Shown: positions 1,255 to 31,592, counted from the first letter of the stretch. The stretch is DNA of 53,705 nt from Magnetococcales bacterium DCbin4 (GCA_002753735.1 PEAN01000025.1:1-53705), one strand, 5' to 3'. Notes: generated by a model from the letters alone, not told the origin. Made by a program: numbers and translations.

Positions 1255-2446
1255 GGCTGATGGTTTCATAAATGGGACCGAATACCGACAGGATCACCCA
1301 CCCCAACAAGCCCCCCATCACCAACGTCAAAACCGGCTCCACCATCGCCTGCAAACCGTCAATGCGTTCCCGAACCTCCCGATCCAGAAAATAACTGACA
1401 TGTTCCATGGCCCCATCCAATTGACCACTCGCCTCGCCCGCCTCCAACAAACGTGGCAACGGCGGCGGCAAAACCGCCTCGTCGCGCAACGCCGCACTGA
1501 CTGCCTGACCTTCCGCCACCCGATCATGGACCCGCCGGATCAACTGGGAAAGAACCTTGTTGGCCGTCAGGCGTTCATTGATGGCCAAGGCATCCAATAC
1601 CGGAATCCCCGCACGATACATCAAGGTGAAATGGGTGGTGAAACGGACCAGAAAAAATTTGCGGATCAACGGTCCAACCAACCAAACCCGAAGCAACCAC
1701 GCATCCAACCCCACATCAAGCTCGGGACTGAAACGACGCACATACCCCAAACCAGCCACCAGGCCCACAGGAATCAAAATCATCAACCACCACCAATGCA
1801 CGACAATACGACTCACTTCAAACAATATCAGGGTATACAATGGAATCTCCCCCCCCATCTTGGGGATGAACTCCATCAATCGTGGGGCGAGAAAGAGCAT
1901 CAGAAAGAAAAACAACGCCATCACCACCAAACCCACGATGGCGGGATAACGGATCGCCTGCACCGCCCGCGAAGCCAGTTCATCCTCCCATTTGAGGTTG
2001 TCGGCCAAGGCCCGGAAAATTCCTGTCAGTTGTCCAGTTTTCTCCCCGACCTGCACCAGACTGGAAAAAACGGAGGGAAAAAGTTCAGGATAGGGAACCA
2101 TCGCTTCCGACAGCCCCTTGCCGCCGCGAATATCCTCGGTAATGGCAGCCATGACATCGCGAAATCTTGGATGGGGCAAGGAACGACGGATTTCATCGAT
2201 GGCATCGGGAATGGAGGCTCCCGCCTTGAGCATTTGTTCCATATGCAGGCAAAAGAGAATCAACAATTTTCGCCCGATGATCCGGCGGCGGGAACGTAGC
2301 TGATGTTGTTCGGAGGAGCGGATATCGATCAACCACAACCCCATGCGTGACAATTTAAGCTCCAGGTCCTTGGTGTTGAGCGCCTGGATCCTGCCGTGCG
2401 AAATCCGCCCTTTCTTGTCAGCGGCCCGATACAGGAATTCACCCAT
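1241..2446 (-). CDS. Type IV pilus/T2SS inner-membrane platform protein (MshG/PilC/GspF family), copy 1
   Basis: Polytopic platform protein that couples the assembly ATPase to pilin insertion. It has the usual family layout: a short cytoplasmic N-terminus (MGEFLYRAADKKG), two GspF domains each with a conserved helical bundle, a first membrane segment near residues 165-190, a second near 215-240, and a last near the C-terminus (VLTLVMGGLLGWVILSVFGP). About 401 residues, normal for the family. I take the ATG at 2446, which overlaps the stop of the upstream ATPase gene by 8 bases (ATGGGTGA) and gives the typical N-terminus; a longer reading starts 21 bases earlier. It forms an operon with ATPase E1 upstream and the minor pilin gene downstream. 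A second, clearly paralogous gene lies at 26464-27669, and both end in a similar ILSVxGPIY motif. Confidence 0.92.
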   Translation of the reverse strand: MGEFLYRAADKKGRISHGRIQALNTKDLELKLSRMGLWLIDIRSSEQHQLRSRRRIIGRKLLILFCLHMEQMLKAGASIPDAIDEIRRSLPHPRFRDVMAAITEDIRGGKGLSEAMVPYPELFPSVFSSLVQVGEKTGQLTGIFRALADNLKWEDELASRAVQAIRYPAIVGLVVMALFFFLMLFLAPRLMEFIPKMGGEIPLYTLILFEVSRIVVHWWWLMILIPVGLVAGLGYVRRFSPELDVGLDAWLLRVWLVGPLIRKFFLVRFTTHFTLMYRAGIPVLDALAINERLTANKVLSQLIRRVHDRVAEGQAVSAALRDEAVLPPPLPRLLEAGEASGQLDGAMEHVSYFLDREVRERIDGLQAMVEPVLTLVMGGLLGWVILSVFGPIYETISHVRF

Positions 2447-5189
2447 GCGCCGGCTCCACGGCCACATCCCCCAAGGCCATCAAATCAACCGATCGCGCCA
2501 GTTCCTCCAAGGTCGTCAAACCATTTCTGACCCGATCAATGCCATCCATGGCCATGGTACGAAACCCCAGCGTGCGGCCATGGGCGAGGAACTCCCTGCG
2601 TGGCGCCCCGGTATAGATCAATTCATCAAAGGTATCATCCACCCGCAATACCTCCATCACCGGCAACCGGCCCCGATATCCCGAACCGTAACATTCATCA
2701 CACCCCCCTGCCCGATAAACCACCCCCTCTTCCTCCTCCGCAAACCCCAGGATGCGGCGTTCGTCATCCGTAGCCAGTGCCCACTTGCGGCATACAGGAC
2801 ATAGTTTGCGTACCAAACGTTGCGCGATGATGCAATTGATGTTGCCGATGAGAAAATCCTTCTGTGCCCCCAGGTTCATCAAACGCGGCAGCGTTCCCAG
2901 GGTGGAATTGGCATGCAGCGTGGTCAATACCTGATGCCCGGTCATTGCGGCCTGGAGGGCCATGTTGGCGGTTTCACTGTCGTGAATTTCTCCCACCAGG
3001 ATCACGTCGGGATCCTGCCAGAGCAACGAACGAATGCCGGAAGCATAATCAAGCCCCACCGCCTTGTTGACGTTGGTCTGCAAAATGGTGGACATGGGAT
3101 ATTCCACCGGATCCTCGAGGGTCATGACGTTGATGCCGACATTATTGAGATGATTGATCATGGAATACAAGGTGGTGGTCTTGCCGCTGCCGGTTGGACC
3201 GGTTACCAGGATCAATCCCATGTTGCGATGCAAGGCACGATGGAGTTCTTCCAGATTGTGCGGCGTCAGCCCCAGTTCGTCGAGGGAACGGACCTCGCGA
3301 CGCAGATCGAGAATCCTGAAAACGGCGTTTTCCCCATTGATCGTGGGTTGAATGGAAATGCGAAAACTTACCTTTTGTCCCGCCACTTCAAGGCTGATGT
3401 AACCATCCTGGGGAATCCTGGTTTCGGCAATGTTCATTCCCCCCATGACCTTGATGCGTACCATGAGGCTGGGGAGAATATGCTTGTGAAAGCTGTGAAT
3501 CTGACGCAAAACGCCATCGATGCGATAGCGGACGCGCACGAATCCCGCCGTGGGACCCAGATGGATGTCGGATGCCTCCCGTTTGACGGCATCGGTCAAC
3601 AGGGCATCCACCAGCCGCACCATGGGATGGCTGAACTCTGCCGCCGGATCAACCAGGGATTCCAGATCGACCTCCCCGGTTTCCAACTCCCGCAGGATCC
3701 CCTCGACCGACAGTTCATTGCCATAATAATGGTCGATGGCCCCTGCAACATCCGCCTCGCCCGCCAGCCTGGGCAGGACCGTCGCCCCTGGTTCCAACCG
3801 CGCCTGTAACAGATCGAGTACCGAGGCATTCATGGGATTGGCCATGGCCACGATCATCTGTTTTTTTTCCCGATCATAAAGGATGGGAAGAATTCCATGC
3901 CGCTGGGCAAACCGTTTGGGCACCATGGCCAGGGCCTCGGGTTGAGGCGACACTTCGACCAGATCAACCGATTCATGATTCAATGCTTCGGCCAGCACCC
4001 CCCGCAGACGCGATTCCGCCACCAACCCCAACCGGACAACGATACGACCCAACGATTCAGAAGAACGCTTTTGTTCCGCCAAGGCAGTCTGCAACTGATC
4101 CTGGGAGATCAAACCCCGCTCCAACAGCAAATCACCCAATCGCCGTGGCGGCTGTTCCCCTGTTCCCAACCCTGCCGGAGACGCATCATCGCCCCCAACC
4201 TTGGGTGATCTCCGCCAGCGATTGATAAAACATTTGAGCCAGAACGATTGCGGTTGAAACTCATTCAAGTTGCCATAGTGACTTCGAGGGGGTCTTTGCA
4301 ACAACAATTGCGCAGTCAACAGTTCCAACCCCCCCCTTTGCCAACCTTCACCGATCCCTAACGACCGTGCCAGGATCTCCACATCCACCGCCGTATAACG
4401 CGCCCCCACCAACGAACCCGCCAATGCGGTCACTTCGCGTGAACACGCAGCTGGCGCGAGGAAAAACAGATCGAACGATTGCCCCCGTTCCAAAATTTTC
4501 AAACTCGACAAATACCCCTGGGTCCGAAGCAATTCCTGGAAGATGATATCAGCACCCGCTTCTCCCATGGCAACCCGCATCGGAGTCATACGGCTGATCT
4601 GGGTACGGCCCCGGACAAAATAAGTCTGCCGCAGGCCAAACGAATTCAATATCGCAAGCAATGCCCGTTCCGACCCCCGGTTGATCCGCCGCAACAATTG
4701 ACGCATCAACAATTGCTGCGACCACAATCCCACCACCACCACCTTGCGTTCCCGCAGGATTGTCAACCAGGGGGTGATCAACCCCGGATTGACCAGCCCC
4801 GAATAAAGGATCCGTTCACCGTCCATTCCCTTTCCCTGGGAGACCGCCCGGCGATAGGGCGTCGCCATGAACAACCGCTCCAGTCGCCGATCCAGAACCC
4901 GTTTGCGATCCCCTCCCCGCAAACGCGGAATCAACTCCCCTTTCATTTCCTCTTCGATCACGTCCACCAAGACAAACACGGGATGGCCATCGTTTTTATC
5001 CTGCAAAAATTTTTCAAATCCAGCATGCCCTTCCTCATCCTGGGCAAACCGGCCCTGTTCTTCGAATACGCCATTGTCCCAGTGGTACACCACCAACCGT
5101 TCCCGGGAGACCACCAACAGACGGGAACTCATCTTACGGTCCGGCAGCAAGGTCAGAGGATTTTCAAACAGCGCTGAGATCAAAGACAT
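2439..5189 (-). CDS. MshE/PilB-type assembly ATPase with an N-terminal MshI/PilM-like domain (fusion)
   Basis: Cytoplasmic motor ATPase for pilus assembly. Counting from the ATG at 5189: residues about 20-325 form an extra domain, about 350-490 an MshEN domain (motif RLGDLLLERGLI), and about 505-900 the GspE/PilB ATPase. The ATPase has Walker A GPTGSGKT (about 664-671), Walker B/Asp box ILVGEIHD, His box GHQVLTTLHAN, and a four-cysteine zinc site (about 797, 800, 830, 833). Usual PilB/MshE length is about 570 residues; this is about 916. The extra domain aligns by eye along its whole length with the cytoplasmic part of the MshI-like protein at 24824-26467: VLVDVIEEE vs LLVDLVEEE, LYSGLVNPGL vs LLSGITDPDL, PPRSHYGN vs RPRNHYAN. 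It stops where that protein enters the membrane. The Asp box has H where GEIRD is usual. Start: the ATG at 5189 has AGGTGA 11 bases upstream; a GTG at 5204 is in frame. Confidence 0.93.
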   Translation of the reverse strand: MSLISALFENPLTLLPDRKMSSRLLVVSRERLVVYHWDNGVFEEQGRFAQDEEGHAGFEKFLQDKNDGHPVFVLVDVIEEEMKGELIPRLRGGDRKRVLDRRLERLFMATPYRRAVSQGKGMDGERILYSGLVNPGLITPWLTILRERKVVVVGLWSQQLLMRQLLRRINRGSERALLAILNSFGLRQTYFVRGRTQISRMTPMRVAMGEAGADIIFQELLRTQGYLSSLKILERGQSFDLFFLAPAACSREVTALAGSLVGARYTAVDVEILARSLGIGEGWQRGGLELLTAQLLLQRPPRSHYGNLNEFQPQSFWLKCFINRWRRSPKVGGDDASPAGLGTGEQPPRRLGDLLLERGLISQDQLQTALAEQKRSSESLGRIVVRLGLVAESRLRGVLAEALNHESVDLVEVSPQPEALAMVPKRFAQRHGILPILYDREKKQMIVAMANPMNASVLDLLQARLEPGATVLPRLAGEADVAGAIDHYYGNELSVEGILRELETGEVDLESLVDPAAEFSHPMVRLVDALLTDAVKREASDIHLGPTAGFVRVRYRIDGVLRQIHSFHKHILPSLMVRIKVMGGMNIAETRIPQDGYISLEVAGQKVSFRISIQPTINGENAVFRILDLRREVRSLDELGLTPHNLEELHRALHRNMGLILVTGPTGSGKTTTLYSMINHLNNVGINVMTLEDPVEYPMSTILQTNVNKAVGLDYASGIRSLLWQDPDVILVGEIHDSETANMALQAAMTGHQVLTTLHANSTLGTLPRLMNLGAQKDFLIGNINCIIAQRLVRKLCPVCRKWALATDDERRILGFAEEEEGVVYRAGGCDECYGSGYRGRLPVMEVLRVDDTFDELIYTGAPRREFLAHGRTLGFRTMAMDGIDRVRNGLTTLEELARSVDLMALGDVAVEPAHG

Positions 5190-5276: not shown

Positions 5277-5341
5277 CTAATCATGGCCTGAATTTCATGT
5301 TACGTTCAGTTTTTCCTTCCAGACAGGCAGAGTCTCATGCC

Positions 5342-6859
5342 ATGTATCATGAACATTTTGGACTCGATGAGCCCCCTTTTCGCAATACCCCCGATACCCG
5401 TGTTTTTTACTCCGGCAGCAAACGGGGTGCCATCCTCGAAGCCATGGAATATGCCCTCCTCCAGGGAGAAGGGATCCTCAAGGTCGTCGGGGAAGTCGGC
5501 AGCGGCAAAACCATGCTGTGCCGCATGCTGGAAAGCCGCCTGGCGGGAAAGATGGAAACCGTCTTCATCGCCAATCCCAGCCTGACCCCGGATACGATTA
5601 TTTACGCCATCGCCGTCGAACTCAACGTCACCATTGCGGAGAAAAACGACCGGTTTCAGGTGCTTCAGTCGCTGCAACGCCTGCTGTTGAAAAAACATGC
5701 CGAGGGTCGCCATGTCGTCGTACTGGTAGAAGAAGCCCAGGGAATGCCCTTGGCAACGCTGGAAGAAATCCGTCTGCTCAGCAACCTGGAAACCACCCGT
5801 GCCAAGTTGCTGCAACTGGTCCTGTTCGGTCAACCCGAACTGGACCTCAACCTGGCACACCCCTCCATTCGTCAACTCAAGGAACGGATCGCCTATCAGT
5901 TCGACCTGCCCCGGTTCAGCCCGAAGGAGTGCGAAGAATACCTCGGCATGCGCATGCGTGCCGCAGGCTATCGCGGTCCAACCCTTTTTTCACCCAAAAC
6001 CTGCCGCGCCATCTGCAAACAATCGGAAGGGTTGACCCGGCGCATCAACATGCTGGCGGATAAAGCCCTGATGTGCGCCTATATCGACAAGAAGGACCAC
6101 GTCACCCCGCGACATGTCCGACAGGCCACCAAGGAAAACAGGTTGACCCCTTTGAGTGTCCAACGGCGTATCACCCCCCTGATCCTTCTGCTCGCCCTGA
6201 CAGCAATCGCCATCGCCGGGATGACCGGGTTTTATCTGGCCAACCGGTTTCAAACCGAAACGATCACCGCCACACACCAAACCGTCATCAACACGCCCCC
6301 AGAGAAAGCCACTCCAGAAACGCGACAAGAACCCGGGGTCGCCAAACAACCCGATCCCCAACCCTCATCCACCCCCCCTCAGGAAGCCACTCCGGAATCC
6401 CTGCCACCACCGCTGCCCGAGGTGAAACCACGTCCCGTTCCCCCGTCACCCGAAAGCACATCGGCCCACGCCATCAGTGGCAGCAAAGAAACCTTCCCGC
6501 CTCTGACCTCTGATGAACTGCGCCACCTCCTGGAACAAAAACTGAACGCCACCAACCAATGGCTCAAAACCGCCGACGCCAAACACTATACCCTGCAAAT
6601 CACCCGTTTGCCCAACAGGCTGGGAACCTGGCTTCAGGAAATGATCATGATTGAAACCCACCTGAAAGGACGGTTGTTCATTCGTCCCACAACCGTCAAC
6701 GGCCAATCCTTTTATACCATCTATTACAACGATTATGCTTCCGAAATCGCCGCCCGCCAAGCCATTGAACACCTGCCGCAACGCCTGCGCCAGTTCCATC
6801 CCGTGATCCAGCGAGTGGCACAGGTCATGAATCCAAATGGACCGGGAGACAAAAAATAA
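5342..6859 (+). CDS. ExeA/MshM-like AAA+ ATPase with membrane anchor and SPOR-like C-terminus
   Basis: Single-pass inner-membrane ATPase likely to help place the pilus secretin or machine through peptidoglycan, as ExeA/GspA does in type II secretion. Counting from the ATG at 5342: an N-terminal MYHEHFGLDEPPF motif typical of MshM/ExeA, an AAA+ domain about 5-265 with Walker A GEVGSGKT and Walker B VVVLVEEAQ, one membrane segment about 275-300 (LILLLALTAIAIAGMTGFYL), a Pro/Glu/Thr-rich periplasmic linker about 310-395, and a C-terminal domain whose end (FYTIYYNDY ... AARQAIEHLP) resembles SPOR domains. Plain MshM is about 280 residues; this is 505. An upstream ATG at 5297 is in frame but has no ribosome site and would add an atypical N-terminus. 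It is divergent from ATPase E1 and convergent with the ABC ATPase. Confidence 0.88.
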   Translation: MYHEHFGLDEPPFRNTPDTRVFYSGSKRGAILEAMEYALLQGEGILKVVGEVGSGKTMLCRMLESRLAGKMETVFIANPSLTPDTIIYAIAVELNVTIAEKNDRFQVLQSLQRLLLKKHAEGRHVVVLVEEAQGMPLATLEEIRLLSNLETTRAKLLQLVLFGQPELDLNLAHPSIRQLKERIAYQFDLPRFSPKECEEYLGMRMRAAGYRGPTLFSPKTCRAICKQSEGLTRRINMLADKALMCAYIDKKDHVTPRHVRQATKENRLTPLSVQRRITPLILLLALTAIAIAGMTGFYLANRFQTETITATHQTVINTPPEKATPETRQEPGVAKQPDPQPSSTPPQEATPESLPPPLPEVKPRPVPPSPESTSAHAISGSKETFPPLTSDELRHLLEQKLNATNQWLKTADAKHYTLQITRLPNRLGTWLQEMIMIETHLKGRLFIRPTTVNGQSFYTIYYNDYASEIAARQAIEHLPQRLRQFHPVIQRVAQVMNPNGPGDKK

Positions 6860-6913: not shown

Positions 6914-7639
6914 TCAGCCAGAGGGGAAACCATCGATACAACGGATAAAGGATTCTTCCAAGGTGTTTCCCGGATAATCCTTACGGCAGTCGGCGGGTGA
7001 ACCTTCAAAGCGCAGATGGCCCGAATGCAGGATGGCCATGCGATCACACAACTCTTCGACATCGGCCAACAGGTGGGTTGAAAAAAACAACGTTCGCCCC
7101 TCCTCCTTGAATTTGAGCAAACGCCGTTTGAGCATGACGCGTGCCTTGGGATCAAGACCACTCATCGGTTCGTCCAACACCAACAAGTCACGTCCACTGA
7201 GAAAGGCCCCCGCCAATCCCAGTTTTTGCGTCATCCCTTTGGAGAAGTCCCGGACATGGCGCTTCAGGGCGGCCGGTTCCAGGTCGAGGTCGGCCAGGAT
7301 TTCATCAACCTGGTCCGCCACGAAGGGTTGCTGGTGCAGGCGGGTGACATAACGCAAAAATTCCCCCCCTTTGAGGAACCAGGGGGGGGTGAATCGTTCC
7401 GGAAGATACGCCAATCCCGAGCGGGCCCGGGTTTCCCGATGGTCTTTGCCATGGATGAAAATGTTGCCGCCATCAATACGGATGAAATCGAGCAATCCTT
7501 TGATCAGCGTCGTCTTGCCCTGGCCATTGGCCCCGACAAAGGCGAAAAACTCCCCCTGACGCACCGTGAATTCAAGCCCCTGCAACACCTCATGCGCAGC
7601 AAAGCGTTTCCGCACCCCCTCAAACCGTAGCACATCCAC
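6914..7639 (-). CDS. ABC transporter ATP-binding protein (PilH-like candidate)
   Basis: Cytoplasmic nucleotide-binding subunit of an ABC-2-type transporter. Visible motifs: Walker A GANGQGKTT (about 36-44), signature FSKGMTQKLGLA, Walker B LLVLDEPMSGLD, and H-loop STH. The Q-loop region reads AYLPERF, as in CcmA/NatA-type exporters. 241 residues is normal. The start is GTG at 7639, supported by GGGAG eight bases upstream; no in-frame ATG fits. The only ABC permease in the window is at 15987-16763 on the same strand, about 8 kb upstream, separated by the TA pair, the pilin and the Hsp70 operon. In Myxococcus the ABC genes pilG, pilH and pilI are needed for type IV pili, and Geobacter pilin loci also carry ABC genes, so a pilus-linked role is a reasonable inference, not shown here. 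Confidence 0.9.
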   Translation of the reverse strand: MDVLRFEGVRKRFAAHEVLQGLEFTVRQGEFFAFVGANGQGKTTLIKGLLDFIRIDGGNIFIHGKDHRETRARSGLAYLPERFTPPWFLKGGEFLRYVTRLHQQPFVADQVDEILADLDLEPAALKRHVRDFSKGMTQKLGLAGAFLSGRDLLVLDEPMSGLDPKARVMLKRRLLKFKEEGRTLFFSTHLLADVEELCDRMAILHSGHLRFEGSPADCRKDYPGNTLEESFIRCIDGFPSG

Positions 7640-7794: not shown

Positions 7795-8202
7795 TCAACA
7801 TCGACTTTTCTCAGCCCGTTGAAACACTTTGTCTACAAAATCAAGAAAACCTGTTACCAGGAAGCGTGTTTCCTTACGGTTGATCTCTTGACCCAATTCG
7901 GGATAGGCATCATAACGAAAAGCAATGGCAAAGTCGGTGTAATCCAGCAAAGGCAGAAAGATATCCGGCATTTCTTCCCCGGCACGCTGTATAAGTTTCG
8001 CCAGTTCGTCCAAGTCATGTCTTCTGGGATAAGGAACGCCAAGACAACACAACCACCCCTTCAAGCCTTTCTCAACGGCTTGCTGAACATGAAATCCAAA
8101 TATTTCATCAGGAAAGTCCACAACATTGTCCATGGCCGTCAAGGCACGGCAATCCTTTCCCGCCATGAGGATCATTGCCTTGGCCGTCTTAAGGTCGTTC
8201 AT
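7795..8202 (-). CDS. HEPN-domain protein (probable toxin of a HEPN/MNT pair)
   Basis: About 135 residues with the HEPN pattern: an N-terminal helix with AKAMILMAGKDCRAL, then GFHVQQAVEKGLKGWL (the helix seen in many HEPN proteins), then RRHDLDELAKLI, and a motif FRYDAYPEL near the third helix. The family includes RNases and the HepT toxins. The catalytic R-x4-6-H motif of RNase-type members is not obvious; this subgroup usually has R-Y-x-(D/E) instead, so activity is uncertain. I choose ATG 8202 (MNDLKTAK), giving a 14-base overlap with the nucleotidyltransferase gene upstream, typical of these pairs. The longer in-frame reading from 8238 lies inside that gene. The pair is embedded between the pilin and the ABC ATPase on the same strand. 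Confidence 0.82.
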   Translation of the reverse strand: MNDLKTAKAMILMAGKDCRALTAMDNVVDFPDEIFGFHVQQAVEKGLKGWLCCLGVPYPRRHDLDELAKLIQRAGEEMPDIFLPLLDYTDFAIAFRYDAYPELGQEINRKETRFLVTGFLDFVDKVFQRAEKSRC

Positions 8203-8515
8203 AGAGCAACGTTCCCTCTCGCACGGCATGCGCAGCAACGTGATTCAAAGCATCCTGCCAATAAGCCATTTCATCACGACTGTAGAGCAGAATATCCTTG
8301 GATTGGGGAAAAGGAGTCAAAACGTCACGTATCCGTCGCAGTTCCCGCCACCGACTCCGACTACTAAAGTTATCATCCTCCACAATCAGAAGATCGATAT
8401 CCGAATCTTCCGTCGCCTCACCCCTGGCCACTGAGCCGAACAGATAAATTCGTTCAGGCTTCACTGCTTCCACAATGGCTCGGACCATTTCCTCCAATAC
8501 ATCCTTGGCAATCAT
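8189..8515 (-). CDS. MNT-type nucleotidyltransferase (probable antitoxin of the HEPN/MNT pair)
   Basis: A minimal nucleotidyltransferase of 108 residues. The hallmark is GSVARGEATEDSDIDLLIVE: GS, then the DxD metal-binding pair, after IYLFG. In characterised HepT/MntA systems the MNT protein inactivates the HEPN toxin by adding AMP residues to it. Start: ATG at 8515 (MIAKDVLEEMV), with GGGG about seven bases upstream. An open frame extends further upstream, but that part has no family character. It overlaps the HEPN gene by 14 bases, so expression is coupled. Role as antitoxin is from family knowledge; the catalytic residues are intact here. Confidence 0.87.
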   Translation of the reverse strand: MIAKDVLEEMVRAIVEAVKPERIYLFGSVARGEATEDSDIDLLIVEDDNFSSRSRWRELRRIRDVLTPFPQSKDILLYSRDEMAYWQDALNHVAAHAVREGTLLYERP

Positions 8516-8704
8516 AAGATAGCCCCATCGGTCAACCCAACCCACCAAGGCGATTAAGGTGATTCCATGACAGGGCATACCAAAACAAAATTCCGTAGTG
8601 GGCCAAGCCATGATCCCCCATAAAAAACGGAAACCACTTTTCTTCCACAACTTCTAAAAACGATGCATCCGTATCGCCCCGGGGTAATCTTTCCAGGAGA
8701 TCAC

Positions 8705-9511
8705 CTAAAATTGATAGACCCCGCCACAGTCGGTCACCTGGCTGACGATTGCCCAACGTTGGGGCCAGGTGGCGGTCATATCGGGAGCGGCAGGGGTCGC
8801 GGCACCGTCGTCGGCACACAGATGCCCGACATTACCCACCGCCGCACCGATAAACCCGTCACTCACCCGAAAGCTGCCGGAACCGGGATGACCATCGTCC
8901 ACCTTGCGATCCAGTTCGGCAATGATCTCAATGGGGATCCCCCTGCCCGACCATAATTGGTTGGAACGGGCTTGATCAGCCACGGTACTCAATCCCGTCT
9001 GTTCATCGTCATAAGCGATGATCAAAGCACCGTTGAAGGCATTGGTCAGACAGGTATCGGTGGGACAAGACCAATTGGCCTCATCCGTCGCCCCGAATTC
9101 GGTTCCCAGATAATTGCCCGAAATAAAGCCCGAACGGGCCAGATGCAACCAGGTCAACCCCAGTTCGCGCAGACGATTGGCAGAATCGGGGGTTCCGGGC
9201 GTCGCCGAATCGTTGAACCCGATGCGACTGTTGCCGTCACCATTCTGTTCCACGCCGGTCAGACCCGGAATATTGTTGAGGGCCGCAGCATAATCCCCCG
9301 GCAGCGCCCGGTAACGATCTGAAAACCCGAGAATGGCCGCCTTGACGGCATTGCCCTGGTCGGCGACATTGTGGGCACGGGCATTGCGGATCATTTCCTG
9401 CCCCTTGAGGACCCCGCCCAATAGCAAACCGATAATCACGACAACGATGGCAATTTCGATCAGAGTAAACCCATCCTCGTATCGCTTATTGTTTTTTTCG
9501 TATGGCTGCAT
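8705..9511 (-). CDS. Type IV pilin (MshA-like major or pseudopilin)
   Basis: Prepilin of 268 residues with a 14-residue leader ending in DG, followed by FTLIEIAIVVVIIGLLLGG. This is a textbook class III signal with Phe+1 and Glu+5, cleaved and methylated by PilD-type peptidase and then assembled into the fibre. The globular part is Gly/Asp/Asn-rich, with CPTDTC and a last Cys just before GGVYQF, suggesting disulfide-stabilised loops. The start is decided by the ribosome site: AAAGGAG lies about eight bases before the ATG at 9511, while the upstream ATG at 9541 is inside that leader. It is larger than typical PilA (about 150), closer to MSHA-type or pseudopilin size. A dispersed repeat lies just upstream, then the Hsp70 operon. 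Confidence 0.92.
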   Translation of the reverse strand: MQPYEKNNKRYEDGFTLIEIAIVVVIIGLLLGGVLKGQEMIRNARAHNVADQGNAVKAAILGFSDRYRALPGDYAAALNNIPGLTGVEQNGDGNSRIGFNDSATPGTPDSANRLRELGLTWLHLARSGFISGNYLGTEFGATDEANWSCPTDTCLTNAFNGALIIAYDDEQTGLSTVADQARSNQLWSGRGIPIEIIAELDRKVDDGHPGSGSFRVSDGFIGAAVGNVGHLCADDGAATPAAPDMTATWPQRWAIVSQVTDCGGVYQF

Positions 9512-9589
9512 GGTATGTACTCCTTTCGAATTGCGTTTCACCCGATTGGAAACCGTGAATGATCATGGCAATATCATGATCGGAATGCC

Positions 9590-9641: not shown

Positions 9642-9941
9642 TTACTCCAGAAAACGCGCGACCTCCCGGGAAAAAGGGGTGGAATGGACAAGACGGGCAC
9701 GCCTTGCCCATGCGGCTGCCCGACGCGGATCGCCACACGCCAACGCAGCCAGGGCACGGAGAAGCAATGTCCTGCCCAAACGTTGCGCATCCAGGATCCA
9801 AGTCATGTCCGCACCACACCTGCGGCAAAAAACCTCCCCTTCCACCCAACTTGCCCGACAAATGGGACATTTTTGCAAGGGACCGGCAAGATTTTGATTT
9901 TTGGCAGGCAACTCGTGCAGTTCCATACCCATGAACCTCAT
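9642..9941 (-). CDS. Small zinc-ribbon protein closing the Hsp70 operon
   Basis: 99 residues. Two CxxC knuckles (CPIC and CRRC, about 12 residues apart) make a treble-clef or ribbon-type zinc site about 25-42. The rest is Ala/Arg-rich helix (ALAALACGDPRRAAAWARRAR) resembling one TPR-like hairpin. The ATG at 9941 overlaps the Hsp70 stop by four bases (ATGA), so it is translated from the same mRNA and is the last gene of the operon. Function is unknown. By analogy with the zinc domains of DnaJ it could supply a substrate- or chaperone-binding zinc module missing from the J-like protein, but that is speculation. Confidence 0.7.
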   Translation of the reverse strand: MRFMGMELHELPAKNQNLAGPLQKCPICRASWVEGEVFCRRCGADMTWILDAQRLGRTLLLRALAALACGDPRRAAAWARRARLVHSTPFSREVARFLE

Positions 9942-11704
9942 GTTTCCATATAAAACAGAATATCCGCCAACTGTTCCCGCAACGATTTCACCTCCCGAAA
10001 CTCCTTCCGGTCCAACGCCTCCTGGATGGATTCGATCAGATTGACCATGTCGTCCCGATCTTCGTCGGTGGCCTCACCCAACAACCCTCTGGCCTTTTCC
10101 ACCACTGCCCGGGCAGTCGCGGTCTCGGTATGATCCCCCCCGGAATCATCCCCCCCCTCCGCCACGCCGGGAGATGACCCGCCCGAGATCCCCTCGAACA
10201 TGGCCGCAACCCGTCCCTTGGCAAGATCAAGCGCGTTTTCCCCCTTCCGGGTCAGGGCATTATTGATGGTGATTTTCTTGTTCAACCCGGTGTTTTTTTC
10301 CGTGGCAGTCACATGCAACACCCCGTTCACATCCAGATCCAGCCTGAGGACAATCGGACCGCCCTCCTTGGCCTTGCTCAATCCCTCCACCATGAACTGT
10401 CCAATTTCAATATTATAGGAGGCGTCGGAATGCTCGCCCTGAAAAATTCTGACATCAACCTCTTTCTGGTTATCATAGACCGTAAAAAACACTTCGCTCT
10501 TGCTTGTCGGGATCGGAGTGTTGCGACGGATCAGGGGAACATAGAGAAAAGGGGTCCAGACCCCATCCAACTCCCCCAGGGCACTGGTGCCAAAGGTGTA
10601 GGGCGTGACATCCACCAACACCGCAGTCCCCGTTGCCCCCCCGATGATGGCACCCTGAATGGCCGCCCCCAGAGCGACACACACATCCGGATCCACTTCG
10701 CCACGGGGAACCATGCCAAACACTTCCTCAAGCCGTTTTCTGATCACAGGGGTCCGGGTCGCCCCCCCCACCAAAAGGATTTCCTGAATCCCCCCAGTCC
10801 CCAGATGGGCGTCGTCCAGTGCCTTGTGGACCAGATCCAAGGTTTCATCGACATGGGAAGAAATCATCGCTTCATAGTCGTTCCGAGACAGTTCCAGGTC
10901 CAGATGCAAGGGGATCCCGTCACGGGTACCAAGGAATTCCTCTTCCACCCGGACGAAAGGATGATCGGAAAGAGACCTTTTGGAAGACTCGGCCCGCCGC
11001 AGAATACGCGCATGCGGCGATGTTCCCGGCACGACATCGAACTGGCGTTCCCCCGCCAAATGATCCAGAATATATTGGCCGATCCGATTGTCAAAATCAT
11101 CCCCCCCCAGATGGTTGTTCCCCGTACTCGCGACCACTTCGACGATCTCGTCCTCCATCCGCACCACCGAGACATCGAACGTGCCCCCACCCAGATCGAA
11201 CACCAGGATATGCCGCTGACCCGAATGACCCGCCTCGTAGGCCAGAGCGGCGGCGGTCGGCTCGTTGATCATGCGGACCACCTCCAAACCGGCAATTTCT
11301 CCCGCTTCACGGGTGGCCTGACGCTGGGCATCGGAAAAATAGGCGGGTACCGTAATGACCGCCTTGGTCACCTCCCGTCCCAGATCAGCCCGGGCCATAT
11401 CCTTCAAATGTCTGAGGATGAACGCCGAAATCTCCTGCGGCGAATAATCGGTCCCCCCCAGGGAAACCTTCTCGGCACGCCCCATCTTTCTCTTGATGGA
11501 ACGAATGGTCGCCTCAGGCCGCGCCACATATTGATTCAGGGCCGCCTCACCCACCAACAACCTTCCCTGATCGTCGATTCCCACCACCGAGGGAATGATG
11601 GCCCGCCCCGCAGCGTCGCGAATCAACCTTGCCCGCCCATCCTCGAAAACCGCCACTTCCGAATTGGTCGTTCCCAGGTCAATGCCGATAATCGGTTCGT
11701 TCAT
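9938..11704 (-). CDS. Hsp70-family chaperone (DnaK paralogue)
   Basis: 588 residues, shorter than canonical DnaK (about 638). The nucleotide-binding domain is complete: phosphate-1 GIDLGTTNS, the substrate-lid region NEPTAAALAYEAG, phosphate-2 FDLGGGTFDVSV, and adenosine motif LLVGGATRTPVI. The linker is atypical: DVTPYTFGTSALGELDGVW replaces the usual VTPLSLGIETLGG, with an insertion. The beta-sandwich (about 385-500) is recognisable (VLHVTATEKNTG), and the C-terminal lid is short and preceded by a Gly/Asp-rich stretch. The start ATG overlaps the GrpE-like stop by four bases. It is the fourth gene of a tightly overlapped operon with its own J-like and GrpE-like partners, so it is probably a specialised Hsp70 rather than the general DnaK. 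Confidence 0.93.
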   Translation of the reverse strand: MNEPIIGIDLGTTNSEVAVFEDGRARLIRDAAGRAIIPSVVGIDDQGRLLVGEAALNQYVARPEATIRSIKRKMGRAEKVSLGGTDYSPQEISAFILRHLKDMARADLGREVTKAVITVPAYFSDAQRQATREAGEIAGLEVVRMINEPTAAALAYEAGHSGQRHILVFDLGGGTFDVSVVRMEDEIVEVVASTGNNHLGGDDFDNRIGQYILDHLAGERQFDVVPGTSPHARILRRAESSKRSLSDHPFVRVEEEFLGTRDGIPLHLDLELSRNDYEAMISSHVDETLDLVHKALDDAHLGTGGIQEILLVGGATRTPVIRKRLEEVFGMVPRGEVDPDVCVALGAAIQGAIIGGATGTAVLVDVTPYTFGTSALGELDGVWTPFLYVPLIRRNTPIPTSKSEVFFTVYDNQKEVDVRIFQGEHSDASYNIEIGQFMVEGLSKAKEGGPIVLRLDLDVNGVLHVTATEKNTGLNKKITINNALTRKGENALDLAKGRVAAMFEGISGGSSPGVAEGGDDSGGDHTETATARAVVEKARGLLGEATDEDRDDMVNLIESIQEALDRKEFREVKSLREQLADILFYMET

Positions 11705-12378
11705 GAAGCCCCCTCCCTTTTTTTATTGGTGCGAACCTCGGCAGCCCGCAATAGCTGTCCATTCCATAGATAACCTTTAAGATCCTCGGTCACCACGACC
11801 CCGGAAGCCTTGTCGTCCCGATCCTCCACCCCCACAACCCGCATCGTCCGGGGATCCAGGGGTTGGTCCACGGTTTCAATCACCGCAATCCCCTGCCCAT
11901 AAAGAATCTGCTCCAACCTGCGCAACAACATCTGCAACCCTTCCGCCATCCCCGACCGCCAAGCGGTTTCACGGTGCGACAACCCGGCGGGAAACGAAGG
12001 TTGATGCGCTTGGATCATGACAACACTTCGTTCCAGGCGATCCCTCAACCCAATCAATTCCAAAAGCATCGCCCCTTGCGACCGTTGTGCCCGTTCCTCC
12101 CCCGCCACCCTGCGCCGCTCCATTTCCTGGGCAAGGGCCAGTCTGTCGGCCTCCATCGCATCGAACAAGGCCCGAAAACGATCCAACGCCTCCTTGAATT
12201 GGCGCGATTCAATCCGAACCTCGTTTTTCAAACCCGTCAGCGCAAGATAGAGATGCACCAGGTCATCGGCAACATCCAAGGAGGGTTCATCCCCCCCCTC
12301 CTCCATCCCTTCATGCGCTGCTTCCTCCAGAAACGTACGAAACCGGGTCACCAGGGATTCCCTGGAACATTCATCCAC
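11701..12378 (-). CDS. GrpE-like nucleotide exchange factor
   Basis: 225 residues. The C-terminal third matches the GrpE beta-wing: PLDPRTMRVVGVEDR, then GVVVTEDLKGYLWNGQLLRAAEV, equivalent to the GrpE signature ending in GY...RvLRpA.V. The N-terminal two thirds are long charged helices, as in the GrpE dimer stalk. Start: GTG at 12378 with GAGGAG nine bases upstream; there is no suitable ATG. It follows the J-like gene by three bases and overlaps the Hsp70 gene by four. Role by family: ADP release from the adjacent Hsp70. The sequence is divergent outside the C-terminal motif, so it is probably specific for this Hsp70. Confidence 0.85.
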   Translation of the reverse strand: MDECSRESLVTRFRTFLEEAAHEGMEEGGDEPSLDVADDLVHLYLALTGLKNEVRIESRQFKEALDRFRALFDAMEADRLALAQEMERRRVAGEERAQRSQGAMLLELIGLRDRLERSVVMIQAHQPSFPAGLSHRETAWRSGMAEGLQMLLRRLEQILYGQGIAVIETVDQPLDPRTMRVVGVEDRDDKASGVVVTEDLKGYLWNGQLLRAAEVRTNKKREGAS

Positions 12379-15237: not shown

Positions 15238-15987
15238 CTATCGCGTCATTTCCTGTATTTTCTCCCGAACCTCGATCCCCTCCAGCCGTTGATTAAGAAA
15301 ATGAATCTCCTGAGGATCGTTGACCAGGTGACTGGCCAGGAGACCTCCGATGAACAGCCTGGCCTGTTCCAACTCCCCCATATCTTCAAGGAACGTCAGT
15401 TCCATCTGTCTGGCCCAGGCGGGAACAGAAGTACTGGAGGCATGTTGGCGGATGGCCCGGGCATAGTTCAATGCCAAGGGGAGGTCGTGCAGGCGATGTT
15501 TGGCGATGATGGCCACATGCCCCAACCATGGCCAACGCCGGTTGGGATCCAGGAAAAACTGTTCGTAGACGAAGTGAGACAAAACCCTTTGGGTCTCTTC
15601 GCAAGCGATATCGGCATAAAAGCGACTGGCAGCCATCAAGGGATATTGTGACCGGGGATCAAGATCGATGATGGCGGCAAGCCACCGGGTCAAGCGGTGG
15701 GGATCCAAATCCTTGAACGACAAGCTGACCCCCGACTGATAATCAAACGCTTGGAGCCAGAGCATGGCCAAGCGGTTCAGGGCCACCGGGTCACCGAAGG
15801 TCAAGAGGCGGAACATCCCCGGGGGTGGGGGATCGGGCAAGGCATCCGCCCGAGCGCGCGGCGGGTTGAGGTGGGCATGAAAGAGCAATTGCAACCCCAG
15901 GCAGAGCAATGCCAGCCCCCAGACCCATCGGGGGACATGAGACCAGGGTCGGTCACGCCCCGCCATGGAAGCCAAAACGGTGGCCAT
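15238..15987 (-). CDS. Membrane-anchored helical-repeat protein next to the ABC permease (PilG-like candidate)
   Basis: 249 residues: one N-terminal membrane segment about 20-38 (VWGLALLCLGLQLLFHA), a Pro-rich spacer (LPDPPPPG), and a periplasmic helical domain with motifs LTFGDPVALNRLAMLWLQAF and DLDPRSQYPLMAAS. I recall similar proteins next to ABC exporters in pilus loci of other proteobacteria, but I cannot confirm the family name. The ATG at 15987 shares a base with the permease stop (TGATG), so it is translationally coupled. With the permease and the distant ATPase it would form a three-part system like Myxococcus PilG-H-I. That is inference from order and topology. Confidence 0.7.
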   Translation of the reverse strand: MATVLASMAGRDRPWSHVPRWVWGLALLCLGLQLLFHAHLNPPRARADALPDPPPPGMFRLLTFGDPVALNRLAMLWLQAFDYQSGVSLSFKDLDPHRLTRWLAAIIDLDPRSQYPLMAASRFYADIACEETQRVLSHFVYEQFFLDPNRRWPWLGHVAIIAKHRLHDLPLALNYARAIRQHASSTSVPAWARQMELTFLEDMGELEQARLFIGGLLASHLVNDPQEIHFLNQRLEGIEVREKIQEMTR

Positions 15988-16763
15988 CAAAAATTTTTCC
16001 GGTACAGGTCAATCAGAGCCGCCGCCACGAGCAGGGAAAGATAGATCCCTCCCTGGACCACGACAAAAATCAGATCATCCCACCCACCCGTGCCGTACAC
16101 CAGCCAATCACTGCGGGTCAGGCGATCCAGGGCAGGAAGGACGAAGGCAAGGGCGTCGATCAAGCGGTTCATCAACCAGACATGCAACACCCCCTGGGGC
16201 ATGATCGGCCCCTGACCGATCCATTGCAGGACGATCACCGAGCGGGCCAGCAGATAGACCGCCATGACCAGGGCAAACGCCGGGGGAACCTGACTGAAGG
16301 TCAACAGGGAGAATAAAGACAGGGCGATCACCAACATCAATTCAAAAAAAAGCGACACCCCCCACAATACGGACTGGGAACCAGGAGCGAAAAAGCAGGT
16401 TCCACCGGCAAACAAGATCGCCACCGCCAAGGCGATCATGGCATATCCCACGATCCGCCCAAACAGATAACCGGCACGGGGAACCGGGAGCGACAATACC
16501 AGGTCAACCCCCTTGTCATTGAACTCACGCACCTGGGCATTGAGGACAAACAGAGTCAACACCAACACCGCCCCCAGACGCAGGAAAAAGCCTGCAACCG
16601 CCGCCTGGACCGCCTCCGTCTCCATCACCGCCAACGCCCCCGCAAACCAGGCCAGGCTCATCCCCACCGCCCAAACCGCCACCACCAGCCCGGGCAACCG
16701 GGTCCGCACCCCCTCCAACACCGTCACCCGGGCAATTGCCGCAACCGGAATCAAATGGGACAT
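15987..16763 (-). CDS. ABC-2-type transporter permease (PilI-like candidate)
   Basis: About 258 residues with six predicted membrane helices, starting GLVVAVWAVGMSLAWFAGAL and ending IYLSLLVAAALI. The conserved cytoplasmic stretch VREFNDKGVDLVLSLPVPRAG sits between helices 2 and 3, as in ABC-2 permeases. Start: ATG at 16763 has AGGTGA five bases upstream; a GTG at 16814 would add 17 polar residues. It overlaps the membrane-anchored helical-repeat gene by one base. The matching ATPase is probably 6914-7639. No other permease is visible. Substrate unknown. Confidence 0.85.
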   Translation of the reverse strand: MSHLIPVAAIARVTVLEGVRTRLPGLVVAVWAVGMSLAWFAGALAVMETEAVQAAVAGFFLRLGAVLVLTLFVLNAQVREFNDKGVDLVLSLPVPRAGYLFGRIVGYAMIALAVAILFAGGTCFFAPGSQSVLWGVSLFFELMLVIALSLFSLLTFSQVPPAFALVMAVYLLARSVIVLQWIGQGPIMPQGVLHVWLMNRLIDALAFVLPALDRLTRSDWLVYGTGGWDDLIFVVVQGGIYLSLLVAAALIDLYRKNF

Positions 16764-17104
16764 AACATTCACCTGTTGTTCAGCCTGAAGGGGGGTATGA
16801 GATGATGGTTCCACCTTGATCCGTCATGGTCCCTGCCAACGCCCCTGAAATTGCCCGCACCGCTGACGGAGTTCCATCAATCATCATTGACGAAGCACCT
16901 TATTCTCCCTGCCCTTGCGAAGATCCGAAAGCCATGGACTCCAGCTTGGACATGTGACCAGGGAATCAGAATGACATGATTGTTACATCATGAACCGATT
17001 CGCGCTTCATTAAAGCTTTGTTCACCCGAAGGAACCGGGGACCATTCCCACCAAACCGTCGGAAACCAAAGCGCACTCAAAGGCAAAGCACGGACGTTAC
17101 CAGG
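16764..17104. other. Intergenic region, nothing confident
   Basis: About 340 bases between the chemoreceptor 3' end and the permease start, both on the minus strand. It should hold the promoter for the permease operon, but I see no convincing -35/-10 pair, hairpin or small gene. Confidence 0.5.
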
Positions 17105-20315: not shown

Positions 20316-21188
20316 TTACTTTCCAATGAATTCATTGACGAACTCGGCGAATTCCATCGTTGTCCCGTTCTCCGAAAGTGCGGTGTCAGTAATCAATTTC
20401 GAATGCTCCAAAATGACATTCAAGGAAGAACCAGGTTTTTCCCTTTGCCCGACGGTGGTAAGGACAGCCTTTTGAAATTTTACTGTTTCGGCTACAGATC
20501 TTATTTTTTCAGGGTCATTCATCTTCCACTGGAACATATTTTTCATGGCTGCCTCTGCTTGTTGGACGATGATCCTGTTTTTATTATCAAATGCGAACAT
20601 GGGCATTAGAATGTCTTCCAATGTCCCTTCATCAGGGGATCGACCCCAAACAAAAACGGCCTTGTCCTTGGCAATTCTTCCAAAAGCGGATTTTGTTTTC
20701 GTCCACGAATCGACAATGAATTTCTTTTCGTCTATTTCTCCAAGTTCACGATTCAAGTTGGCAACGATTGTATCGATACCATCGGTGTCGGAATCATAAA
20801 GAAAGAGATACTTCACCGATTGGGCGATCTCTTTGGCACCTTTGCGAAACGTGTTGACATTTTCGGAAAGAATGAGATAACTTGACAAAAAAATTCTTAC
20901 ATTTTCATATTTTGTTTTCCCGCCGCAGTTGAAAATGAAGGCCATGTTTTTTTCATTACGCAAGACCGTATCAGGTAAGAAAAATTTGTGCGCCATGTCC
21001 AGGGCCATGTCTTCCGCCGAATGTTTTTTCATGGCTGTGTGAAACAGGTTATTGAAAGGGGCGGGCATCTCTGAAAACTTCATCTTTTCAATTTTATAGT
21101 CCATTATTTTTCTAAATACCAATCGCACAAAAGCAGAATCGTGTGGCCCTTCACAAAAAACAAGCAATACATTTATTTCTTCATTCAT
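20316..21188 (-). CDS. TOPRIM-like nuclease candidate (DUF3226/OLD-type), partner of the ParB-AAA ATPase
   Basis: 290 residues, soluble. The N-terminus NVLLVFCEGPHDSAFV has the TOPRIM acidic motif (Glu13 in CEGPHD), and LFLYDSDTDG (Asp132, Asp134, Asp136) supplies the DxD. These are the metal-binding residues of OLD-family, DUF3226 and DUF4435 nucleases. A C-terminal about 100 residues are helical. The ATG at 21188 overlaps the ATPase stop by four bases (ATGA), so the two proteins are made together. Base composition is clearly more AT-rich than the pilus genes around it. By analogy with OLD, Gabija and PARIS (ATPase plus TOPRIM protein), it is probably the effector of an anti-phage module. 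Family assignment rests on the motifs only. Confidence 0.75.
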   Translation of the reverse strand: MNEEINVLLVFCEGPHDSAFVRLVFRKIMDYKIEKMKFSEMPAPFNNLFHTAMKKHSAEDMALDMAHKFFLPDTVLRNEKNMAFIFNCGGKTKYENVRIFLSSYLILSENVNTFRKGAKEIAQSVKYLFLYDSDTDGIDTIVANLNRELGEIDEKKFIVDSWTKTKSAFGRIAKDKAVFVWGRSPDEGTLEDILMPMFAFDNKNRIIVQQAEAAMKNMFQWKMNDPEKIRSVAETVKFQKAVLTTVGQREKPGSSLNVILEHSKLITDTALSENGTTMEFAEFVNEFIGK

Positions 21189-23356
21189 TGCGCTCTCCGC
21201 AGGTCTACATCACCGGCCTCAATCAGTTTACAGAATTCCTTGCCGTCAAATTCTCGGATGGAGATAGTTGCGTTGTCTTCCACAAGTGCATGAAATGTGA
21301 AATCTGAGCTTTCATGATCAGGGATGGTTTTCACGAACGAGTCGATACATTCCTTGCTATGGCTTGTGAGAAAAACCTGTACATTGAATTCTTTCGCCAA
21401 TAAGTGGATGAATGGCGCAAAGGTCTCAATCAAGTCTGCATGAATGGCGTTCTCAAATTCATCAATCAGGACCACCCCATCCTTGGCAGATGCAAACAGT
21501 AGTGAAGTGAAGAAAATTCTTTGTAAACCTTCACCGTAAGAGGTTAAATCCATGGAACTTTCAAATCGGTCATCATCAACCAGGAATCTTTGGAACTCAT
21601 CAACGAGACGAATATCTTTGACCGTGGGCACCATCTTTTCCTGAATGAATTGAAAAATTTCTGGAAGAAGCTTTGATTGTACGCTTCTATGGTAGAAAGC
21701 GGTGTAATGGTGCGGCTCGTTGAAGAAGAAAGGGCTGCTAAAGACGACCTTGCTTAATAGCTTGATGGTGTCTGCCTGTGTCTCCCGATCACGACTTTGA
21801 TAAATTCTTGTGAGTGCTTCGAGTTTATGTGTTCCAAACTGTGTTGAGATCTCGACTGATTTCAAATAGCGGGCACGGTCCAAGGTTGTACTTTCTTCGA
21901 TGAATGGTCGGATTTCGACGCTGCTCATCTTATTGTCAAATATACCTTCGACGACGATTGTTTCAGTGAGTTGGTCGGTCAGCCATTTAGGGGGAATATG
22001 ATCTCCCGGTATCTTTCCTCTCCGCCGGAGGACATCAACGATACCATTGAAGTCGTTTTGTTTGCATAAAAGGTACACCGCTTCAAGGATGGAAGTCTTT
22101 CCACTGTTGTTAATGCCTGCAAAAAGGTTGATCCTGGAAATTTTTGTCACTTTGAGTTGATGAAGACGACGGTATGCAGTGATGGTAATGGATGAAAAAT
22201 GGTCATCGATCCGGTCATGGAAGACGGATGTTTGCTCAACACCTTGAAGATTGCTGCTTCGGGCCTTTTCAACAATTCCACGAAGTTTGCCAAAGGTTTC
22301 TTCAAGTTGTGGTGCCTGTTCTGATGATATTGCAAGCTGAGCAATGATATCAACGTCTGAAGCTAATGATCTAACGGCATCTTTTATTCTTTCTTTAAAG
22401 ATAAGATCGCTTGTTCTGTAGGCTTCATGCAGATTCCGATACTCTTCTAGCTTTTCCAATGCACCAGGATCTTTTATAATTTTGGACAATATAGTAATAT
22501 CGTCTCGTTTTGATATGGCCGGTTCCCGGTAATTCCCATCTTTTCCGGAATAATCTGAATCAGAGTCCTCTTCAACTGGCTCCTTCGATAACCAACTAAA
22601 AAAAAGTTCACGGTTTTCGGTATTATTCGCCATGTTGGTCGCGTCATCCCACCCGATCCATTCTTTGAGTGTCGTATTCCTTGCGACCTCCCGGAAGAGA
22701 GGAAACATGGACTCGTCGAATTGGTCTCCATAATCGGATTCTCTATATTGATTTGACAGCGCAAGGGCGCGAATGCTTCTGCGGAGTTCTGTTTTGCTGA
22801 TCGCTACCTGCTTACAGATATTGTCCTCGGAAAGGTGATAATCCGTCATAAGTTTTTCTAATAGTTTAGCGCGATTCCATTCTCCCCATTTGCGATTGCC
22901 ACTAATATGTTTCAAAGCCATAAGTATTAAATAATGGGAGTCATCTGGATCTTCATAGAGAACGACAGGGACTTTGCTAAACAAAGTTTCATCTAATTTT
23001 CCAAGATCAATACTCTTTCCATTATATTCATTGCTGAGAAATTTAAGTGCAGCGATGCGACGATTTCCCTCTACAACAACATACCCACCATTGGCAATTT
23101 CTCTGACCTGAATCTGATCGACAGGCAAGTAACCATTAGACTTGAAACTTTCGATAAGATCTTGGATATTTTGATTCTTGTCCCCCGCGACCAGTCGATA
23201 GGTTCTATTTGCGATATCCTTGTCTTTGATTTTTTCATCTGGAACATTAACCTGTTCTGCTTCATGAATAAGACGAAAATTATTTGGATCGAGATAAAGA
23301 TTTCGCAGGCTGACTTTTCGAATGTTTGCTCCGGGCTGTTTGTTCTCTTCAGACAT
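21185..23356 (-). CDS. ParB-like N-domain fused to ABC-type AAA ATPase (defence-like)
   Basis: 723 residues (numbering from the in-frame ATG two codons upstream). Residues about 15-135 look like a ParB/Srx fold (GGYVVVEGNRRIAALKFL, 92-109, holding the ParB G-x-R-R box). This is followed by a helical part with HISGNRKWGEWNRAKLLEKL and an HTH-like segment (VAISKTELRRSIRALAL, about 186-202). About 390-725 is an OLD/AAA_15-type ATPase: Walker A GINNSGKTS (416-424), signature SYGEGLQR (608-615), Walker B VVLIDEFENA (630-639), and H-loop SH at 667-668. I choose ATG 23356, with AAAGG six bases upstream. The gene is AT-rich against its neighbours and lies next to mshK, as expected for a transferred cassette. 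The likely role is sensing DNA or phage and controlling the TOPRIM partner. Confidence 0.82.
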   Translation of the reverse strand: MSEENKQPGANIRKVSLRNLYLDPNNFRLIHEAEQVNVPDEKIKDKDIANRTYRLVAGDKNQNIQDLIESFKSNGYLPVDQIQVREIANGGYVVVEGNRRIAALKFLSNEYNGKSIDLGKLDETLFSKVPVVLYEDPDDSHYLILMALKHISGNRKWGEWNRAKLLEKLMTDYHLSEDNICKQVAISKTELRRSIRALALSNQYRESDYGDQFDESMFPLFREVARNTTLKEWIGWDDATNMANNTENRELFFSWLSKEPVEEDSDSDYSGKDGNYREPAISKRDDITILSKIIKDPGALEKLEEYRNLHEAYRTSDLIFKERIKDAVRSLASDVDIIAQLAISSEQAPQLEETFGKLRGIVEKARSSNLQGVEQTSVFHDRIDDHFSSITITAYRRLHQLKVTKISRINLFAGINNSGKTSILEAVYLLCKQNDFNGIVDVLRRRGKIPGDHIPPKWLTDQLTETIVVEGIFDNKMSSVEIRPFIEESTTLDRARYLKSVEISTQFGTHKLEALTRIYQSRDRETQADTIKLLSKVVFSSPFFFNEPHHYTAFYHRSVQSKLLPEIFQFIQEKMVPTVKDIRLVDEFQRFLVDDDRFESSMDLTSYGEGLQRIFFTSLLFASAKDGVVLIDEFENAIHADLIETFAPFIHLLAKEFNVQVFLTSHSKECIDSFVKTIPDHESSDFTFHALVEDNATISIREFDGKEFCKLIEAGDVDLRRAQ

Positions 23357-23563
23357 GCTCATCCTTTCGTGCAGTGCGTTTGCCTTAATAAATCAGATTG
23401 AATAACGGGTGAATTCCATGTTCCAATTGATTCCGGTTGCAACGATTGCCCTGGTGACGGTGTAAGAGGGGGCTCGGGCCCGGTTGTCAAGGCAGAAGAT
23501 ATCCACACAGTCGATGCCCGAACTGGCAAACAAAGCAAAAACCCTTTTTTTCCCAAATCATTT

Positions 23564-27669: not shown

Positions 27670-27721
27670 GGTTCATTATGCTCAAGAAAAAATGTGGTCT
27701 CAAGGGATTCCACTCCGACGT

Positions 27722-27751
27722 ATTATTTTGATAATTCATCAAAATCATCAA
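27722..27751 (-). promoter_or_regulatory. Candidate sigma-70 promoter of the mshG-I-J-K operon with a dyad in the spacer
   Basis: On the minus strand: TTGATG, an 18-base spacer, then AATAAT (five of six matches to TATAAT). The spacer region contains a perfect dyad, TTTTGAT-N5-ATCAAAA at 27726-27744, which could be an operator. The distance to the ATG at 27669 leaves a leader of about 45 bases. Confidence 0.5.
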
Positions 27752-29079: not shown

Positions 29080-29089
29080 GTGGCGCGTG

Positions 29090-29191: not shown

Positions 29192-29207
29192 TTGATGTTG
29201 GTCCCCG

Positions 29208-31590: not shown

Positions 31591-31592
31591 CT

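Follow-up and report, generated by a model that had tools for sequence, protein, structure and literature searches.

Can the motor ATPase of a type IV filament carry a stator-like domain in the same polypeptide chain, and if so, does such a fusion do away with the separate stator protein? The question is raised by a gene, here called E1, that lies on the minus strand at positions 2439–5189 of a 53,705-nucleotide stretch of the Magnetococcales bacterium DCbin4 genome (GCA_002753735.1, PEAN01000025.1:1-53705), the whole of which is referred to below as the window. A first-pass annotation of this DNA described E1 as an assembly ATPase covalently fused to a PilM/MshI-like domain, and that description holds: E1 is a single intact open reading frame, its N-terminal part matches the stand-alone MshI-like protein of the window (24824–26467, minus strand, 547 amino acids (aa)) with an E-value of 2e-33, and the same architecture is found in 34 genes from 28 genomes. 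The fusion is real, old and conserved in Magnetococcales.

The fused gene and the predicted fold of its N-terminal domain

E1 encodes 916 aa, or 921 aa when read from the GTG at 5204, in a reading frame that is unbroken on the minus strand (2439–5204/5189). Judging by the sequences of its relatives, which conserve this N-terminus, the ATG at 5189 (MSLISALF...) is likely to be the start; the GTG is possible but less supported. On this strand, the chain comprises an MshI-cytoplasmic-type domain (4254–5132, residues 25–317 in the 921-aa reading; hereafter the N-domain), a linker without a transmembrane segment (4146–4253), a conserved cyclic di-GMP (c-di-GMP)-type motif I with the MshEN domain (3708–4145), and a T2SSE ATPase domain (2493–3632). 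Pfam and NCBIfam searches located the MshE-related c-di-GMP motif NF053729 at residues 355–406 (63.8 bits against a cut-off of 38), MshEN (PF05157) at residues 413–499, and a complete T2SSE domain (PF00437, E 7e-118) at residues 525–904. E1 has the MshEN and T2SSE domains of an assembly ATPase, with the Walker A, Asp, Walker B and His motifs intact, and carries about 330 aa beyond the usual MshE, which is about 570 aa long with MshEN at the N-terminus. It falls below the NCBIfam equivalog cut-offs for GspE (474 vs 630 bits), PilB (463 vs 676) and TfpB (386.7 vs 850); no MshE equivalog model is among the NCBIfam matches to E1.

The first 330 or so residues of E1 have no credible match in Pfam or NCBIfam. 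By BLASTP, residues 29–329 align with residues 7–309 of the window MshI (122 bits, E 2e-33, 30% identity, 48% positives), confirming the annotated similarity of the first 325 or so residues to the MshI cytoplasmic domain. The PxxHYxN motif that had been pointed out is present in both copies (PRSHYGN and PRNHYAN), and invariant residues are common to fused and stand-alone domains. The similarity was also said to end where MshI enters the membrane, and it does so with a margin of about 15 residues: the last aligned residue of MshI is 309, and the MshI model consists of the cytoplasmic domain, a long membrane helix or coil at residues 296–358 and a periplasmic alpha/beta domain.

The AlphaFold2 model of the N-domain, built from a 56-sequence alignment, has a pLDDT of 87.5 and a pTM of 0.86. 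Its best matches in the PDB, according to Foldseek, are an actin-like-fold protein, PilM of Pseudomonas and of Thermus, the cytoplasmic domain of EpsL/GspL (GspL-cyto), the GspL of 4pht, and FtsA; the match of this predicted structure to the actin-like fold of PilM and FtsA reaches an E-value of 1e-9 with a probability of 1.00. For the stand-alone MshI, whose model was built from an alignment that left fusions out, PilM is the first Foldseek match, and GspL-cyto structures match as well. In these models both copies are predicted to share the actin-like PilM/GspL-cyto fold, so the comparison of predicted structures that had been proposed for the two N-terminal regions yielded related folds and the same PilM and GspL structures.

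The proposed profile search of the N-terminus against PilM and GspL, by contrast, gave no match. The N-domain has neither a PilM_2 (PF11104) match in Pfam nor a hit in a profile search of the PDB, and its hhalign probabilities against alignments of the order's own PilM and GspL are under 1% (0.5% for PilM); with all three methods negative, the identification of the N-domain as PilM by sequence was rejected. Furthermore, the PilM of the order has a GLDIGxxAIK nucleotide hairpin (DxG) that is missing from both the fused and the stand-alone MshI-type domains; the corresponding position in E1 reads RLLVVSRERLVVYHW. Because sequence methods miss PilM and GspL, "PilM-like" is a claim on the predicted fold, and "MshI cytoplasmic domain" is a claim on homology. 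The original PilM/MshI-like label thus stands for MshI homology and for the predicted PilM/GspL fold and fails for PilM as defined by sequence profile or by the DxG hairpin; the N-domain is more exactly of the MshI/GspL-cyto type than of the PilM type.

The fused copy has also lost part of MshI. All 27 stand-alone copies from Magnetococcia have a hydrophobic segment after the domain, and none of the 34 fusions does; the fused copies keep a cytoplasmic domain homologous to MshI of MSHA (mannose-sensitive hemagglutinin) operons and lack its transmembrane helix and periplasmic domain. With this segment gone, the fusion no longer has the portion expected to reach the alignment complex. The suggested hard-wiring of the motor to that complex is accordingly not supported: the segment is absent in 34/34 fusions, and the linker to MshEN varies among them in length and sequence.

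Distribution and origin of the fusion

A whole-genome search located four copies of the N-domain in the source genome, namely E1, the window MshI, and a second fusion and second MshI on another contig (C16), so that the fused architecture occurs twice in this genome. Among 48 Magnetococcales genomes, which also served as the class sample, the N-domain is present in 31, and 34 ATPase-fused genes occur in 28; the named carriers are Magnetococcales metagenome-assembled genomes (MAGs) from several independent projects. The fusions keep Walker A, the Asp and His boxes, the CxxC pairs and c-di-GMP motif I, and nearly all of them have an intact ATPase active site. According to counts compiled from match tables, 22 of the 28 fused genomes also have a separate MshI, frequently encoded two genes away from the fusion in its operon, and 22 of 28 likewise have an unfused MshE of the same clade, often in the same cluster, as in the window. 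No MshI was detectable in the other six, including genomes rated 99%, 96% and 93% complete. In some that are nearly complete (for example G008, 99%; G025, 96%), we found the fusion and PilC, and detected neither MshI nor an unfused MshE.

Three kinds of loci can be distinguished. Type A contains genes for a secretin, MshN, unfused MshE, PilC, MshI, MshJ and an MshK-like protein (23564–41149 in the window). Type B, exemplified by contig C16 with its two ATPases and one PilC, consists of MshM, secretin, MshN, unfused MshE adjoining the fusion, PilC, MshI and MshJ; the type B loci L005, L100, L102, L114 and L124 encode a fused and an unfused assembly ATPase and only one PilC. In type C, the fusion and PilC have no MshI beside them and often lie near pilin-like and ABC transporter genes; the window E1, which lies past the 3' end of the type A cluster, is of this type. 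A PilC gene adjoins every fusion whose 3' neighbor is assembled, and 13 loci have the fusion, PilC, MshI and mostly MshJ in a single run. In L142 and L147, which appeared to encode long unfused MshE proteins (968 and 873 aa), the N-terminal extension looks like a GC-rich open frame without a domain, and both were set aside.

Outside the order, where a sample rather than a complete survey was searched, the fusion was not found. Matches of the Gallionella, Massilia and Janthinobacterium type are stand-alone proteins of roughly 490–560 aa in MSHA operons; the Massilia operon, for instance, encodes a secretin, a TPR protein, an MshE of 567 aa, PilC and then the MshI-like protein. In 43 loci of beta- and gammaproteobacterial type, every neighboring MshE examined was unfused, and no fusion was present in the 12 non-order genomes with an N-domain in a sample of 397 Pseudomonadota genomes, where frames are at most 609 aa. 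One contig labelled as a Klebsiella pneumoniae MAG (L095) encodes a betaproteobacterial-looking MshI-like domain and probably belongs to a mislabelled bin.

In quick trees inferred without bootstrap, the fused ATPases fall within the MshE clade, where all of them group in a single clade (SH-aLRT 97) that has the unfused MshE of type B loci as its sister (SH-aLRT 100). An ATPase cut by the end of its contig (L144), without a visible N-domain, also lies inside the fused clade and is probably a truncated fusion. In the N-domain tree the fusions group with support of 85, except for one long-branched row (L099), and a single fused N-domain clade that includes it is not rejected by the approximately unbiased (AU) test (p 0.205). 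As read from these trees, the simplest account would be that MshE was first duplicated in a type B-like locus and then fused, once, with an MshI-cytoplasmic domain. Over 11 pairs, the ratio of nonsynonymous to synonymous substitution rates (dN/dS) is 0.12–0.22 for the N-domain vs 0.03–0.16 for the ATPase. The N-domain is thus the faster-evolving part in nearly all pairs, yet it is clearly constrained, that is, under purifying selection.

These observations leave next to no probability for an assembly or frameshift artefact or a decaying passenger domain: the architecture recurs in 34 genes and 28 genomes, in MAGs of independent projects, purifying selection acts on the N-domain, and the separate genes are intact as well. 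An assembly error, which had been named as a possible refutation, is itself refuted by the recurrence across the order and by the second copy in the source genome; nothing was found in its favor.

Possible roles of the fused motor

The reading that we prefer, and to which we assign about an even chance, is that the fusion is a second MSHA-type extension motor with its own stator-like domain, acting beside the conventional MshE. Under this model, a duplicated MshE-type ATPase would have gained an N-terminal MshI cytoplasmic domain of predicted GspL-cyto/PilM fold without a membrane anchor, such that every motor subunit would carry its own stator-like domain on a linker, and 1:1 motor-stator contact would be made in cis, in place of docking into the membrane-anchored MshI socket. 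The fused motor, ATP-dependent and probably c-di-GMP-dependent, would drive extension on a PilC-type platform, and the conventional MshE would use the separate MshI alongside it. We infer the in-cis contact, the role as an extension motor and the relation to MshI as follows. An active extension motor is likely because the catalytic motifs and c-di-GMP motif I are intact and the PilC gene is adjacent; and with the domain and the motor in one chain, the contact seen between GspE and GspL and between PilM and PilB would most simply be supplied in cis. The N1E domain of GspE binds GspL-cyto 1:1, and PilM forms a ring around the PilB/PilT hexamer (PMC6882859); PilB is described as docking in a socket made by PilM, which restricts the conformational changes of PilB (PMC11656802). 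A precedent for two extension motors on one pilus is the PilB and TfpB pair of Acinetobacter baylyi (PMC8213720), a case that is also discussed in PMC11656802.

Several points weigh against this reading. Sequence profiles fail to link the N-domain to PilM or GspL, and the Foldseek TM-scores are moderate (0.4–0.6). In Vibrio cholerae, deletion of mshI raises piliation rather than abolishing it (PMC4624765); by analogy, an MshI-type domain may restrain the motor rather than support it. Finally, given the variable linker, the N-domain could bind elsewhere than to its own MshEN. A bolder version of the second-motor reading, which we offer tentatively and consider rather doubtful, is a self-docking motor with a covalent stator ring that would need no membrane-anchored MshI or PilM socket and that, in some Magnetococcales, would be the only MSHA-type motor, driving a pilus whose other parts would be no more than a PilC platform, pilins and an ABC transporter.

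PilM- and GspL-type domains can self-associate, and the fused domain might accordingly be an adaptor: by pairing with the cytoplasmic domain of the MshI encoded alongside it, it would anchor the motor within the MshI ring, either instead of conventional MshE or interleaved with it. The 13 runs of fusion, PilC and MshI speak for this: in most, an unfused MshE is encoded close by or in another part of the genome and there is only one PilC, so that two motors would have to make do with one platform and one MshI between them. So does the retention of the same invariant residues by fused and MshI domains. We nevertheless judge such an adaptor unlikely, if worth serious attention, considering that the partner is missing from the six fused genomes without detectable MshI, some of which are 99%, 96% and 93% complete. 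Some nearly complete genomes, for example G008 and G025, with fusion and PilC and no detectable MshI or unfused MshE, suit the proposal of the first-pass annotation that the fusion substitutes for a separate PilM or MshI and rigidly couples the motor to the alignment complex. As a general statement, however, this is contradicted by the separate MshI kept in 22 of the 28 fused genomes, and the source genome has PilM and GspL in addition; the absence of the transmembrane and periplasmic part and the variable linker likewise disagree with it, making replacement quite improbable.

The joint retention of fused and unfused ATPases can also be seen as regulation. The fused domain might cover the motor's own MshEN face and block entry into the MshI socket until c-di-GMP or another signal arrives, such that the fused ATPase would be a regulated or inhibitory partner of MshE. 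The conserved c-di-GMP-type motif directly behind the linker and the increased piliation of the V. cholerae mshI mutant (PMC4624765) are compatible with this possibility. The ATPase site, however, is intact in nearly all fusions, and some fusions have their own PilC and no detected unfused MshE; both facts argue for an active motor, and we regard autoinhibition or competition as distinctly unlikely.

The pilus cluster of the window and its relation to known systems

The surroundings of E1 contain a set of MSHA-type genes. A PilC/GspF/MshG-type platform protein (1241–2467, minus; T2SSF) overlaps the end of E1, and an MshM-like AAA_22 protein with a weak SPOR match (5297–6859, plus) is divergent from it; an MshM-like AAA_22 gene also lies upstream of the fusion in three congeneric loci. 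The remaining genes are all on the minus strand: an MshK-like protein (23564–24271), identified by a phmmer match to the Massilia protein in the MshK position; an MshJ-like protein (24211–24840), identified by position and order-wide conservation; MshI; a second PilC/MshG-type platform protein (26464–27669; T2SSF); conventional unfused MshE of 580 aa with MshEN and T2SSE (35510–37252); an MshN-like TPR protein (37432–39165); and an MshL-like secretin (39218–41149; PF00263). The window thus holds MshL, MshN, MshE, MshG, MshI, MshJ and MshK-like genes together, with the MshM-like AAA and a pilin-like gene nearby; in the published model of the MSH pilus system, mshA, E, G, L and M are mandatory and usually lie in one locus (PMC6668835). 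The source genome also encodes a separate canonical PilM and a separate GspL.

An ABC transporter ATPase (6914–7639), a type IV pilin-like protein (8705–9541; N_methyl PF07963, TIGR02532) and an ABC-2 type permease (15987–16814), the last with a weak Pfam match and conserved position, are encoded on the minus strand, and such genes recur beside MSHA-type genes across the order (L096, L097, L131); we take this set to be reminiscent of PilGHI of Myxococcus. Several other minus-strand genes are interspersed in the cluster: a HEPN and MNT nucleotidyltransferase pair of toxin-antitoxin type (7795–8650) between the pilin-like and ABC ATPase genes; an HSP70-like gene (588 aa) adjoining a GrpE-like gene (9938–12378), with a gene of similar size at the corresponding place in L120; a ParB-N/HTH and AAA_21 type ATPase gene followed by a 290-aa gene (20316–23362); and two histidine kinase genes, one of PAS/GAF and one of receiver-HisKA type (32020–35472), between the unfused mshE and the PilC2-MshI pair, where they split an operon that is contiguous in related genomes.

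Compared with known systems, the two domain kinds of E1, an actin-like GspL-cyto fold (as predicted) and a motor N-terminal domain, are those of the GspE N1E:GspL-cyto complex of type II secretion (PDB 4pht), whose GspL matches both copies; that complex, however, consists of two proteins with a membrane-anchored GspL, whereas E1 is one chain without an anchor, and the N-domain has no sequence-profile similarity to the GspL of the same order. The PilM socket and PilB motor of type IVa pili are alike in the predicted PilM-like fold and in a PilB-like ATPase with an N-terminal domain, although PilM is a separate protein that binds nucleotide through the DxG hairpin and binds the PilN tail, and the fused domain has neither the hairpin nor a PilM_2 match. 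Also close are MshE, with which the ATPase groups, and MshI, e.g. of Massilia, to whose cytoplasmic domain the N-domain is homologous; in MSHA systems, however, MshE normally starts at MshEN and MshI runs on into the transmembrane and periplasmic parts. A. baylyi resembles the fused genomes in having two phylogenetically distinct extension ATPases per cell, but a stator-like domain is described on neither in the text consulted (PMC8213720). As the annotation had supposed, no natural fusion of a PilM-, MshI- or GspL-type domain to an assembly ATPase is described in the open-access literature searched, subscription papers being outside its scope. E1 thus combines known domains of a known machine in a new covalent arrangement.

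Most of what is known about how the stator (PilM, GspL-cyto or MshI) constrains the hexameric motor of type IV filaments comes from partial complexes. With 1:1 stoichiometry fixed in one anchor-free chain, a natural, class-wide fusion offers a soluble target for determining the structure of motor and stator together. It also pulls apart two functions that GspL and MshI always combine, namely to hold the motor and to reach the alignment complex.

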